DNA from: Bacteriovorax sp.
GTDB lineage: Bacteria > Bdellovibrionota > Bacteriovoracia > Bacteriovoracales > Bacteriovoracaceae
NCBI GenBank assembly: GCA_014377485.1
Contig: JACMPM010000015.1
Span: forward strand, 1 to 64,000
Length of the DNA stretch: 64,000 bases
Direction: 5' to 3'
Each line of letters begins with the position of its first letter. Position 1 is the first letter of the stretch. Both the position numbers and the translations under genes were made by a program. Under the pieces are notes generated by a model, which saw only the letters and a program-made list of their open reading frames with translations, had not been told where the DNA came from and ran no database searches. Below are positions 260 to 26,612 of this stretch, piece after piece.

Positions 260-1717
260 ATGGGTGCTAGAAAAAGTTTCAGTCAATTTGAATTAGAAAA
301 AGATTTTGAAGAACTTCCACCACAGAGCTTTTTGTACGATAGACGCGGTCCATGGCCTCAGCCATCAGCGAATCATCCCTTTGGAGAAGTTAAAGCTGTT
401 TTGCATGTTCCTTTTGCTGAAACTTTTAATTGGTGGAAAAAAGTAGGCACGCGCTATATAAAAGACCTTGTATTTTATTCTCCAGTGGCCCTGGCCAAAT
501 CAATTCAACAAGGTGGCTTAAAAGAATTGAGCGATTATCAATTCTCTGAATATTTTTATCATACTTGTTATGCCAAATACTTAACTGCAGAAATCTCTGA
601 GAGCGTTAAAGAATTATTCTGTAACTATATAAACCCAAAATACAATTATCATGTGATCGATTTTTCCGCGATGGAACTTTTAGTTCCGATTAATGGACTA
701 CATTGTGAAAAATCTATCACGCTTTTTGAGCTCTATGACGGAATTGCCAAACCTGTGGCGATCAATTTAAAAGATTATGTAGTAGATCCTACAGATGGTG
801 ATTTATGGATGCTTGGAAAATTCACGGTAATGCAGGGTGCTTCAAATCATATCAATGTAGCTGAACATCCGAAACTGCATTTTCCTATGGATGCAATTAA
901 TGCCATTACTAAGTCGGCCGTACCTATGGATCATATTTTATTTCAATTCCTCATTCCGCATTTTGAAATTACATTAAAATTAAATTACCAAGTTCTCAAT
1001 AATCCAACCTCGTTATTAGAAAATAAATGGTGGATGATTTACGGACCGTTTCCAGCGACTAGTAAATCAATGAGAGATTTGATGGTTGTAGGTTATTGCG
1101 GAATAAAAGGCAATCCATCTTATAATAAATATGAATTTCCAATAAACGGACCGAGGAAAGTTCATTCAGATTTTGGTTTATTTCACGAAAAGTATTATAA
1201 GGCCTACTATAATCTTGCGAAAAATATTCTGTCAGAAATTTCAAAGAACGATAAATACGTTACAGACTGGGCCAATTATATTCACCTTGAAATGCCAAGT
1301 TTTCCCAATGGTGTTGAGATATGGGAAAATGATAATTTTGCCAAAGCAGTAGGCGTTTTACTTTGGGACTTAACACTCGGACATGCGGTTGATCATAAAA
1401 CATATTCTGAAATGCCTGCTTATTGGAACCCTATGCGATTAAGAGTGGCGAGTCCGCTGTTGAAAAATCCAGATTTTAAATTGAATCTTAAATCGGCAGT
1501 TACAATTATCGATCAAACAAAATGGATAATGGCGAATAGACTATTTTATCAACCATGGAATATAAAAAATTTAATGGATGTTGATTATGGTTTTAAAATA
1601 CCTAATCTCAATGAACATGTGAAAAAGTTTAAGCATCAAATGAGAATGATTGAGAAAAATCTTACAACTCGAAACTATATGCCAGTAGATGAAATTCCAG
1701 TAAGTATCCAGTATTAA
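260..1717 (+). CDS. Lipoxygenase-family protein with altered iron-ligand positions
   Basis: A 485-residue protein with no signal peptide; GAGGG lies just upstream of the ATG. Two regions align with the lipoxygenase catalytic core. Residues 197-242 (H197, H203, H207, then DHILFQFLIPHFEITLKLN) match the iron-binding helix and the HPI..LL.PH..T..IN block. Residues 369-393 (WDLTLGHAVDHKTYSEMPAYWNP) match the block carrying the third and fourth ligands (H375, H379). The C-terminus IPVSIQY aligns with the canonical IPNSIxI end. Lipoxygenases add O2 to polyunsaturated fatty acids using non-haem iron. By my hand alignment the second His ligand position is Glu202 (His203 is next to it) and the terminal Ile ligand is Tyr485. 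The protein is shorter than plant enzymes and has no N-terminal PLAT domain. Activity is uncertain. Confidence 0.6.
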   Translation: MGARKSFSQFELEKDFEELPPQSFLYDRRGPWPQPSANHPFGEVKAVLHVPFAETFNWWKKVGTRYIKDLVFYSPVALAKSIQQGGLKELSDYQFSEYFYHTCYAKYLTAEISESVKELFCNYINPKYNYHVIDFSAMELLVPINGLHCEKSITLFELYDGIAKPVAINLKDYVVDPTDGDLWMLGKFTVMQGASNHINVAEHPKLHFPMDAINAITKSAVPMDHILFQFLIPHFEITLKLNYQVLNNPTSLLENKWWMIYGPFPATSKSMRDLMVVGYCGIKGNPSYNKYEFPINGPRKVHSDFGLFHEKYYKAYYNLAKNILSEISKNDKYVTDWANYIHLEMPSFPNGVEIWENDNFAKAVGVLLWDLTLGHAVDHKTYSEMPAYWNPMRLRVASPLLKNPDFKLNLKSAVTIIDQTKWIMANRLFYQPWNIKNLMDVDYGFKIPNLNEHVKKFKHQMRMIEKNLTTRNYMPVDEIPVSIQY

Positions 1718-23405: not shown

Positions 23406-24332
23406 ATGAGATCATATTTTAGTGAAGAAATTATTCAGAAAATTCTTAAATACGCCGCCGTTTTCAATATTGTTTGTGGTCTCTTTTTAGTTATTTCTCC
23501 CAATGCAATATTTAAATTCTGGGGGGTTCCAATTCCCAATATTATTGAAATTTGGCAATACTTAGGATCGATTTTAGTAATTTTTGGTATCGGATATTAT
23601 ATTGCCAGCTTAGGACCTGATACCTCTTGGCCGATTATTCTCGTCGGTTTTTTGTCCAAGATTTTTGGCGTAATAATGTTATTTAAAGCCTATCTCTTGG
23701 GCTCCCTTGCTTTAAACTTTTTTAGTTTGGTACTGTTTATAGACGTCCTTTGGATTCTTCCCTTTTATTACGCTCTCATTTACGCCTATGAAGTTAATAC
23801 GTTGGAAGAAAGCGCACCAAAAAAGTTTTACGACCTGATTAAAGTAGTTAGAACCAGCAAAGGAGACACTCTCTCCGAATTATCAAAAAAAGAAAATGTT
23901 CTTTTGGTTTTTGTCCGTCATTTTGGTTGCACTTTTTGTCGTGAAACTGTTTCTGAAATTGCTAAACTTGACGAGAGTATTAGAGGCAAAAAGTTAACTC
24001 CAGTTTTTGTCCATATGAGTGATCCTTCTTTTGGTGATGAATTCTTTGCCAAGTATTATAAAGATCCAGTGGCACACGTTTCAGATCCACAACGATTTCT
24101 TTACAAAAGCTTAAACCTTAAGCGCGGAAGTCTGTCTCAATTGTTTGGTCCTAAAATATGGATTCGAGGTCTTTGGGCCGGTATTTTTAAAGGTCATGGT
24201 CTTGGGAGTATAGAAAGCGATGCCCTGCAGTTAGGAGGATATTTTATCCTATCACACGGGCAAATTGTTTTTGAACACAAAACAAAAGATGCTGCCGACT
24301 TTTTTAAACTCCAACTCCTTCCAAAAGCTTAA
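23406..24332 (+). CDS. Membrane-fused peroxiredoxin-like protein (AhpC/TSA_2 type)
   Basis: A 308-residue protein. Residues 14-130 form four hydrophobic segments of a small membrane domain. Residues about 140-308 form a thioredoxin-fold domain with VLLVFVRHFGCTFCRETVSE (CxxC at 175/178) and the block SDALQLGGYFILSHGQIVFE. Both blocks match the AhpC/TSA_2 (PRXL2-like) family, normally soluble. The domain is probably on the cytoplasmic side, but topology was not computed. It may reduce peroxides or move electrons at the membrane. The fusion is the odd feature. Confidence 0.72.
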   Translation: MRSYFSEEIIQKILKYAAVFNIVCGLFLVISPNAIFKFWGVPIPNIIEIWQYLGSILVIFGIGYYIASLGPDTSWPIILVGFLSKIFGVIMLFKAYLLGSLALNFFSLVLFIDVLWILPFYYALIYAYEVNTLEESAPKKFYDLIKVVRTSKGDTLSELSKKENVLLVFVRHFGCTFCRETVSEIAKLDESIRGKKLTPVFVHMSDPSFGDEFFAKYYKDPVAHVSDPQRFLYKSLNLKRGSLSQLFGPKIWIRGLWAGIFKGHGLGSIESDALQLGGYFILSHGQIVFEHKTKDAADFFKLQLLPKA

Positions 24333-24384
24333 ATCGTGATACACTCTTAATGTTCTAATTTCCTTTATGGAACAGGGAGTGTCT

Positions 24385-25977
24385 ATGTGCGGTTTCGTAG
24401 TTATCGAGGGGTCCTTCGATACGTCTGCAACTAATGATTTCAAACATGATTTTCAAAAACTAAACCACCGTGGTCCCGACGATCATCAACTCGTCCCTTT
24501 TTCCAAAGGTCTTATAGGCTTTCATCGTTTAGCGATCATGGATTTGTCCGATCATGGAAGACAGCCTTTTCATTCTCATTTATCTAATTTACTAGTCTGT
24601 AATGGCGAAATTTATAATTACCCCGCTTTGAAGAAAGAATGCACTAAACACACTTTCGTATCCGCCTCTGATTGCGAAGTTCTTCTTCCTCTTTACGAGC
24701 AATGGGGATTAAAAAAAATGGTGGAGAGCCTCGATGCCGAGTACGCTCTAGTCATCTGGGATAATAAATTAGGTAAATTGGTTGCGGCCCGCGACCCAAT
24801 GGGAATTCGCCCACTTTTTTATGGAAAAACTATAAACGGAGGCATCGCTTTTAGTTCTGAAGTTAAAGCACTTCTGGATTTTTGCAATGAGATATTACCT
24901 TTTCCTCCTGGGCATTATTTTGATGGCGATCAATTTCATTCTTATTTAGATCTGGGACATGTTGAAAAGTTCCACGAACTCCCTCAAAAAGAAATTTTAA
25001 GAGGAATCAATACTCGTTTAGTTAGTGCCATTAAAAAAAGATTGCAATCAGATGCTGAAGTGGGATTTCTTTTAAGCGGCGGTCTCGATTCAAGTCTGGT
25101 CTGCGCCATCGCTCAAAATTTAAAACCAAAAAAAGCTATTCGCACTTTTTCAATTGGAATGACCGACGATGCGATTGATTCGAAATATGCACAGGACGTA
25201 GCGACTTTTATTGGCTGTGATCACACCAACGTCGTAATGACCACGAAAGAGGTTTTAGACGCTCTCAAAGAAGTTATTTACCATTTGGAGTCTTGGGATA
25301 TAACAACTGTGAGGGCTTCAATTGGAATGTATTTAGTTTGTAAATACATCCGCGAAAATACCAAAATTAAAGTTCTTCTATCTGGAGAAGTGAGTGATGA
25401 GCTTTTTGGTTACAAGTACACAGACTTTGCTCCGAATGCATCCGAGTTTCAAAAAGAATCACAGAAGCGCATTCGCGAACTCTATCTTTATGACGTGCTT
25501 CGGGCAGACCGTTGTATTTCGGCCCATTCAATAGAGGCTCGAGTTCCCTTTAGCGATAGCGATTTCGTTTCCTTCGTCATGGGCATTAACCCAGAATTAA
25601 AAATGAACACCACAGGAATGGGAAAATTTCTATTAAGAGAGGCTTTTAAAGCAGATAATATTCTTCCAGATCATATCTTATGGCGCGAAAAAGCAGCCTT
25701 CTCCGATGCCGTAGGACACAGTATGGTTGATGAGCTAAAAGCAGAAGCCGAACGATCTTATAGCGACGAAGATGTGAAAAATGCGGCCCAAAAATATCCC
25801 TACAAAACTCCTTTCACTAAAGAGTCTCTTATGTACCGAGACATCTTCGAGAGTTTTTACCCTAATAGAGCTGAACTAATAGCTGACTACTGGATGCCAA
25901 ACTCGTCTTGGGATAATTGCAAAGTATCCGATCCCAGTGCCAGGGCACTTCCTAACTATGGAAAAAGCGGCGCATGA
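24385..25977 (+). CDS. asnB: Asparagine synthase (glutamine-hydrolysing)
   Basis: A 530-residue enzyme. I start it at the ATG at 24385 because the catalytic Cys must follow the initiator Met (MCGFVVIEG); an in-frame ATG lies six codons upstream. The N-terminal glutaminase domain includes LNHRGPDDH and FHRLAIMDLSDHGRQP with CNGEIYN. The synthetase domain has the ATP-binding SGGLDSS (about 231-237) and LSGEVSDELFGY. It forms asparagine from aspartate, glutamine and ATP. Its stop overlaps the start of the next gene by 4 bp (ATGA). Confidence 0.95.
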   Translation: MCGFVVIEGSFDTSATNDFKHDFQKLNHRGPDDHQLVPFSKGLIGFHRLAIMDLSDHGRQPFHSHLSNLLVCNGEIYNYPALKKECTKHTFVSASDCEVLLPLYEQWGLKKMVESLDAEYALVIWDNKLGKLVAARDPMGIRPLFYGKTINGGIAFSSEVKALLDFCNEILPFPPGHYFDGDQFHSYLDLGHVEKFHELPQKEILRGINTRLVSAIKKRLQSDAEVGFLLSGGLDSSLVCAIAQNLKPKKAIRTFSIGMTDDAIDSKYAQDVATFIGCDHTNVVMTTKEVLDALKEVIYHLESWDITTVRASIGMYLVCKYIRENTKIKVLLSGEVSDELFGYKYTDFAPNASEFQKESQKRIRELYLYDVLRADRCISAHSIEARVPFSDSDFVSFVMGINPELKMNTTGMGKFLLREAFKADNILPDHILWREKAAFSDAVGHSMVDELKAEAERSYSDEDVKNAAQKYPYKTPFTKESLMYRDIFESFYPNRAELIADYWMPNSSWDNCKVSDPSARALPNYGKSGA

Positions 25978-26612
25978 GCTACAAGACTGTTTTTGAAAAT
26001 GCTCATTTCATCATTGTAGATAAAGCTCCCAATGTTTTAAGTGTTCCTTCTCGCTTAGGGAAAGAGGATCCCAGGGCCTGTTTAGGTCATATACTGCAAC
26101 AAGATTTAGGGAAAATCATTTTTCCAGTACATCGTCTAGACTATGAAGTCCAAGGTTTAATTATCTACGCTTTAACTCCGGAAGCTCAACGGGCCGGAAA
26201 CGCTTGGTTTGAAAATAAAACGATTCAGAAAATTTATTGTGCCATCTCGAAATCGAGTGGAGCATTTGTTGTCGGTGAAACTTATGAGTGGAAGTCTAAG
26301 CTATTGCGAGGAAAAAAACGTGCCTATGAAGCCTCTCATGGCAAAGACAGTTTAACTCGGGCAAAGTTAATTTCAATAGATGAAAAAGGTTTTTCTCATT
26401 GGGAACTCATGCCTATAACCGGGCGGCCTCACCAGCTTCGTTATGAACTTTTTCGTCACGAAGAAGTGATTGTTGGTGACTCACTTTATGGATCAATTGA
26501 AAAATTTTTTGAAGACGGAATTGCTCTGCGAGCGTATGAAATTGATTTTTCCAAAATAAAAAATCGCGAATTATTTTCTCTTCCAGAAAATATTTTTTCA
26601 AAAAAAATTTAA
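25974..26612 (+). CDS. RluA-family pseudouridine synthase
   Basis: A 212-residue catalytic domain. It begins YKTVFENAHFIIVDKAPNVL and has the active-site motif PVHRLDYEVQGLIIYA (catalytic D56), then the KIYCAI and ITGRPHQLRYEL blocks. There is no S4 RNA-binding domain, as in short RluA-type enzymes that modify uridine in rRNA or tRNA. The family's usual T/S-S-G after HRLD is replaced by EVQG. It is translationally coupled to asnB. The target position cannot be assigned. Confidence 0.88.
   Translation: MSYKTVFENAHFIIVDKAPNVLSVPSRLGKEDPRACLGHILQQDLGKIIFPVHRLDYEVQGLIIYALTPEAQRAGNAWFENKTIQKIYCAISKSSGAFVVGETYEWKSKLLRGKKRAYEASHGKDSLTRAKLISIDEKGFSHWELMPITGRPHQLRYELFRHEEVIVGDSLYGSIEKFFEDGIALRAYEIDFSKIKNRELFSLPENIFSKKI

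Follow-up and report, generated by a model that had tools for sequence, protein, structure and literature searches.

Lipoxygenases (LOXs) are enzymes that add oxygen to fatty acids, and the HX4H stretch of canonical members is pi-helical. Their metal ligands are three fixed histidines, a further residue that is His, Asn or Ser, and the terminal carboxyl group, usually of Ile and very occasionally of Val (PMC13059375). For instance, the iron of CspLOX2 (5MED) is held by His257, His262, His449, Asn453 and the carboxylate of Ile569 (PMC5437038). On the role of bacterial LOXs, experimental data are scarce, a function in signalling is an unconfirmed hypothesis, and a link with multicellularity has been proposed and not confirmed (PMC11011848). 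One review glossary names an oxylipin-dependent quorum-sensing system for bacteria (PMC9524268). Quorum-sensing synthases and their sensors, for example CqsA/CqsS and LqsA/LqsS, are usually encoded by adjacent genes (PMC3376566), and sensors of these types share a six-transmembrane (six-TM) design (PMC4821796).

Our literature search found no paper on lipoxygenases of Bdellovibrio-type bacteria. The locus described here comes from the Bacteriovoracaceae, a lineage that preys on other bacteria. It was read in a window of 64,000 bases at the start of a 64,900-base contig, in a genome of 3.95 Mb. We consider it likely that the locus encodes an active single-domain LOX, cytoplasmic or at the membrane edge, which belongs to a divergent Bacteriovoracaceae clade and whose product is possibly a signal read by a histidine kinase.

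A divergent lipoxygenase family

The reading frame given by the first-pass annotation begins with ATG, encodes 485 amino acids ending in IPVSIQY, and is open and full length in relatives at identities down to about 27%. That annotation had also aligned two core blocks with LOXs by hand, a similarity that profile methods recover. With the window protein as query, phmmer against the PDB returns mostly LOXs at marginal scores (best E 0.0066). A 34-row family profile (A1) reaches a LOX at E 1.7e-07, and its significant matches are all LOXs; among the 52 distinct sequences matched, the sole non-LOX is the last and weakest (E 0.96). The Pfam search that had been suggested as a check gave a divided answer. 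The window protein as a lone query has no match in Pfam or NCBIfam up to E 1, and PF00305 is matched at E ≤ 0.1 by 24 of the 34 family members, one of which (from genome G003) lies above the curated cut-off. The family profile also aligns with that of canonical bacterial LOXs found on plasmid records of Acaryochloris, Nostoc, Rhodococcus and Pantoea (A4), from residue 116 to the C-terminus (hhalign, 98%, E 2.2e-13, 344 columns). These three lines of evidence place the family in Lipoxygenase (PF00305) by catalytic-domain homology, and the label 'lipoxygenase-like' is supported at family level. Judged by its sequence, the protein is a real, strongly diverged LOX homologue. Divergent LOX enzymes of this kind are probably under-annotated, since several clade members fall below single-sequence Pfam detection.

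The alignment is gapped at the substrate-orientation (Coffa) and Leu-clamp positions. AlphaFold2, run on an alignment of only three sequences (the window protein and two relatives), gave a pLDDT of 36.7. A simple hydropathy scan found neither a signal peptide-like nor a TM segment in the protein. The suggestion that the enzyme might act on host lipids, as some bacterial LOXs do, finds no support in a protein of this kind from a Bacteriovoracaceae-type host.

Table 1. Positions of the predicted features in the window
Feature	Position	Strand	Basis
CDS, 485-aa PLAT-less lipoxygenase homologue (mini-LOX)	260..1717	+	ORF; profile against PDB 1.7e-07; hhalign 98%
E202 codon, ligand proposed by the first-pass annotation, not conserved	863..865	+	column 202 mostly V/T/E
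H203 codon, predicted first metal ligand (soybean H499, CspLOX2 His257)	866..868	+	34/34; aligns with canonical first ligand
H207 codon, predicted second metal ligand (soybean H504, CspLOX2 His262), HX3H	878..880	+	34/34; residue spacing
H234 codon, counterpart of non-ligand soybean H531	959..961	+	invariant
H375 codon, predicted third metal ligand (CspLOX2 His449)	1382..1384	+	invariant; alignments
H379 codon, predicted fourth ligand (CspLOX2 Asn453)	1394..1396	+	invariant; alignment
Y485 codon, C-terminal, carboxylate as predicted fifth ligand (Ile/Val in known LOXs)	1712..1714	+	shared end column
Multi-TM (about 6) sensor histidine kinase, 445 aa	1721..3058	-	HATPase_c 6.5e-20; HisKA 6.3e-05; hydrophobic segments
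Inverted repeat CTAAGGCAGA-TTGG-TCTGCCTTAG where the convergent genes meet, inside the last kinase codons	1729..1752	.	read in the sequence

Of 129 Bacteriovoracaceae genomes, 30 carry a homologue, as do 33 of 369 phylum-wide (one match being weak), other families included; many relatives are incomplete metagenome-assembled genomes, which makes the absence counts soft. In the tree, the family members group together with full support, separate from the four canonical bacterial LOXs. A deeper subclade (L039, L041, L042, L043, L044, L086), with about 27-36% identity to the window protein, consists partly of second copies (in G029 and G002) and extends to two other families of the phylum. An apparent second copy in the genome of the window (G000:C38:2-166) was rejected as an assembly artefact, because its 119 bases identical to the LOX gene (L134, 1-119, equal to window 652-770) sit at a contig end shared in the assembly graph.

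No relative of the window LOX was found among the viral contigs or the plasmids searched, the latter having supplied the canonical LOXs that served as comparators. Two more distant proteins were encountered. A plasmid of Aureibacter tunicatorum (L093, 2089-3930) encodes a divergent LOX-like protein that ends in Thr and, as aligned, lacks several ligand positions. In Burkholderia stagnalis (L094, 1-3652), a CDS named FAD-dependent oxidoreductase encodes a protein of more than 1,200 amino acids with a LOX-like C-terminal part ending in -NTIQT.

The register of the predicted metal ligands

Four histidines, H203, H207, H375 and H379, are invariant in all 34 members, giving three predicted His ligands at the conserved helix positions and a fourth of the His/Asn/Ser type. 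They belong to 25 invariant columns of the A1 alignment, five of which are His; the fifth falls on the conserved soybean H531. The chain ends at the same column in every member with -SIQ(Y/F) or similar, the last residue being Tyr or Phe and in one case Ser, and neither loss of a ligand nor a C-terminal extension occurs in any of the 34. H375 and H379 had already been proposed as third and fourth ligands and the terminal Tyr as a replacement for Ile, assignments that the family alignment upholds.

The first two ligands had been read differently, with H197 as the first and E202, or else H203, as the second. In this reading, to which we give very little credence, the metal site would contain a carboxylate side chain. 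E202 can indeed be matched to the first-ligand column with no gap, as can H203 once a gap of one residue is allowed, and ungapped local alignments, such as that with CspLOX2 chain 5mee, set E202 there. However, column 197 varies among C, H, A, G, S and R, and column 202 among V, T, E and others, so that H197 and E202 are missing from most members, and the profile alignments (PDB profile, canonical comparators and hhalign) locate the missing residue between H203 and H207. In addition, H207 precedes H225 by 18 and H234 by 27 residues, exactly as soybean H504 precedes H522 and H531, their respective counterparts. As H203 and H207 are invariant while columns 197 and 202 vary, they are the predicted first two ligands, with HX3H rather than HX4H spacing, and by this evidence E202 would not be a ligand. 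The Glu appeared at a ligand place because the register had been set one histidine too early. The idea of a ligand shifted by one residue survives in part: the His-to-His distance is one residue shorter, although the residues named were one histidine out of register. A different, Glu-containing site is contradicted by the variability of column 202.

The HX3H spacing is found in every member, whereas the four canonical bacterial LOXs have HX4H, a feature that is typical of LOXs and not strictly defining. As four His and the chain end are kept at ligand positions, the predicted metal site is shifted by spacing, not lost. Alignment thus points to three family-wide peculiarities, namely HX3H, His as fourth ligand, and a C-terminal Tyr or Phe in place of Ile or Val. 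HX3H may represent an alpha-helical version of the pi-helical HX4H stretch. The first two ligands would then stand at i and i+4, one alpha-helical turn apart, rather than at i and i+5, and the one-residue bulge found in canonical LOXs would be missing from the ligand-bearing helix. Fixed throughout a clade, the shorter spacing and the aromatic C-terminus offer a natural test of how far LOX metal sites can vary.

These departures from known LOXs would also suit a lipid-binding pseudoenzyme that has kept the fold around a non-catalytic, altered metal site. Yet relaxed selection would not keep four His and an exact chain end invariant over 34 members that diverge to 27% identity, and we regard a pseudoenzyme as unlikely. 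The window protein is very probably a catalytically active LOX. In such an enzyme, H203, H207, H375, H379 and the C-terminal carboxylate would together coordinate a single non-heme metal ion, iron (or manganese). As in known LOXs, its M3+-OH form would remove hydrogen from a bis-allylic (or allylic) carbon of an unsaturated acyl chain, and addition of O2 would then yield a hydroperoxide.

The histidine kinase beside the gene

Immediately downstream, a sensor histidine kinase gene runs towards the LOX gene, with 3 bases separating the two stop codons. The inverted repeat where the genes meet could be a two-way terminator; a terminator scan of these positions found none. The kinase combines about six hydrophobic segments with a complete HisKA and HATPase_c core, as a synthase-receptor pair would require. 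Its sensor region belongs to no confident Pfam family and weakly resembles MASE6, MASE7 and MASE11.

Clustering of the neighbours of 23 LOX loci shows that kinases of the window type recur. Counting any related kinase core, the LOX gene has a histidine kinase as its direct neighbour at 11 of 33 loci, and four arrangements are seen. A profile of the sensor region alone finds the same sensor at eight of these: convergent with the LOX gene in G000, G011, G018 and G056, co-directional and downstream in G053 and G047, divergent in G077, and co-directional and upstream in G115. The others are in G045, in G116 and at the second copy in G002. The kinase of locus L076 was left out of the eight, its core grouping with that of the window kinase and its sensor differing. 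At G024 and the loci of genus g16 (G049, G050, G048), a histidine kinase lies about one gene away. At the g16 loci (L070-L073), the gene after the LOX encodes a multi-TM protein of 243-284 amino acids. Near the LOX of G050 there is a 1,701-aa Pkinase-AAA_16-GAF-HATPase_c protein, a kinase partner unlike that of the window, and G052 carries the same Pkinase-AAA-GAF-HATPase_c protein, cut by the end of the region examined.

Gene counts predict 0.025 same-sensor adjacencies against the 8 observed, and even with only four independent cases, to allow for shared ancestry, P(≥4) is 1.6e-08; both figures assume random gene order and were calculated after the pattern was seen. Across genomes, the same-sensor kinase (E ≤ 1e-19) accompanies the LOX in 24 of the 30 genomes that have one and also occurs in 19 of the 99 that lack it (Fisher 2e-09), as detected by a profile built from the group of the window kinase, which favours that group over other kinases. 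A shuffle within genera leaves the co-occurrence at p 1.5e-4. In the kinase tree, LOX-linked kinases are scattered over at least six places, supported branches forcing at least six changes; the adjacency has therefore been repeatedly gained or repeatedly lost and does not trace to one recent event.

The LOX may still be an ordinary catabolic or protective enzyme that oxidises unsaturated lipids of the prey or of the cell itself during predation (membrane remodelling, oxygen scavenging), with a kinase that only controls when it is produced or is linked to it for other reasons. This is a possibility of some weight, though we lean against it. An adjacent kinase is absent at two thirds of the LOX loci, the kinase occurs in 19 genomes that have no LOX, the convergent genes of the window share no promoter, and no conserved hydroperoxide-processing partner was found among the neighbours of LOX loci. 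However, regulation by a kinase needs no adjacency, and yet the two genes adjoin in four orientations and co-occur across genomes.

Since synthase and sensor genes are usually adjacent in quorum-sensing pairs and this kinase is repeatedly linked, we propose, at somewhat less than an even chance, that the LOX product, directly or after reduction, is a signal read by a sensor histidine kinase, whose gene would adjoin that of the LOX or lie at another locus of that genome. More tentatively phrased, the Bacteriovoracaceae may use a dedicated pair of HX3H LOX and sensor kinase in which an oxylipin serves as a density, prey or developmental signal. With adjacency in about a third of relatives, oxidised fat may be a signal, and the recurrent linkage of LOX and sensor kinase in this clade provides a concrete gene pair for the hypothesis of bacterial LOX signalling.

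Fatty-acid desaturases were found in 114 of 129 genomes, LOX-positive and LOX-negative alike, and not in one LOX-positive genome; their presence does not discriminate between the two groups. A search for PUFA synthase (TIGR02813) gave mostly ketosynthase cross-hits, with a single genome of the 129 exceeding the cut-off, and is uninformative on substrate. A frame of about 2,190 amino acids at about 24182-26290 of G000:C114, also present in several relatives, has below-cut-off similarity to PfaA and encodes a putative large polyketide or fatty-acid synthase. Upstream of the LOX gene, positions 2-100 of the window (+, frame 2) hold a C-terminal remnant ending in FNWIFPGHGGWIQKN and a stop codon, cut by the contig start, which we take from its motif to resemble the end of a metallo-beta-lactamase-fold hydrolase. 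A conserved upstream gene of this fold was rejected as a candidate, as it is found at the window edge only and not beside the LOX in relatives.

Known lipoxygenases and synthase-sensor pairs

CspLOX2 of Cyanothece is, like the window LOX, a mini-LOX that consists of the catalytic domain only, and it is among the profile matches in the PDB. Its ligands His257, His262, His449, Asn453 and Ile569 align with H203, H207, H375, H379 and Y485. The two are far diverged (single-sequence phmmer E 0.11), and CspLOX2 has HX4H, Asn and Ile where the window family has HX3H, His and Tyr or Phe. The best matches of the family profile in the PDB are mammalian 12/15-LOXs (3rde, 1lox). These share His as the fourth ligand with the window family but, unlike it, have a PLAT domain, HX4H and a C-terminal Ile.

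The 13R-MnLOX of Gaeumannomyces has HX3H at its first two ligands and a C-terminal Val instead of Ile. On that basis, HX3H would not be unique to the Bacteriovoracaceae clade. Fungal manganese LOXs differ from the window LOX as secreted fungal enzymes with an Asn ligand, and they are absent among the PDB matches listed for the profile. In Magnaporthe oryzae MnLOX, His284, His289, Asn473 and Val605 surround a docked inhibitor (PMC10997076), and the numbering of the two His fits HX4H.

The chemistry of CqsA and LqsA is unrelated to that of a LOX, and the likeness of the sensors here is confined to a weak MASE6/MASE7 resemblance. What CqsA/CqsS and LqsA/LqsS have in common with the LOX locus is the arrangement, in which the gene for a lipid-signal synthase adjoins that for a multi-TM histidine kinase (PMC3376566).
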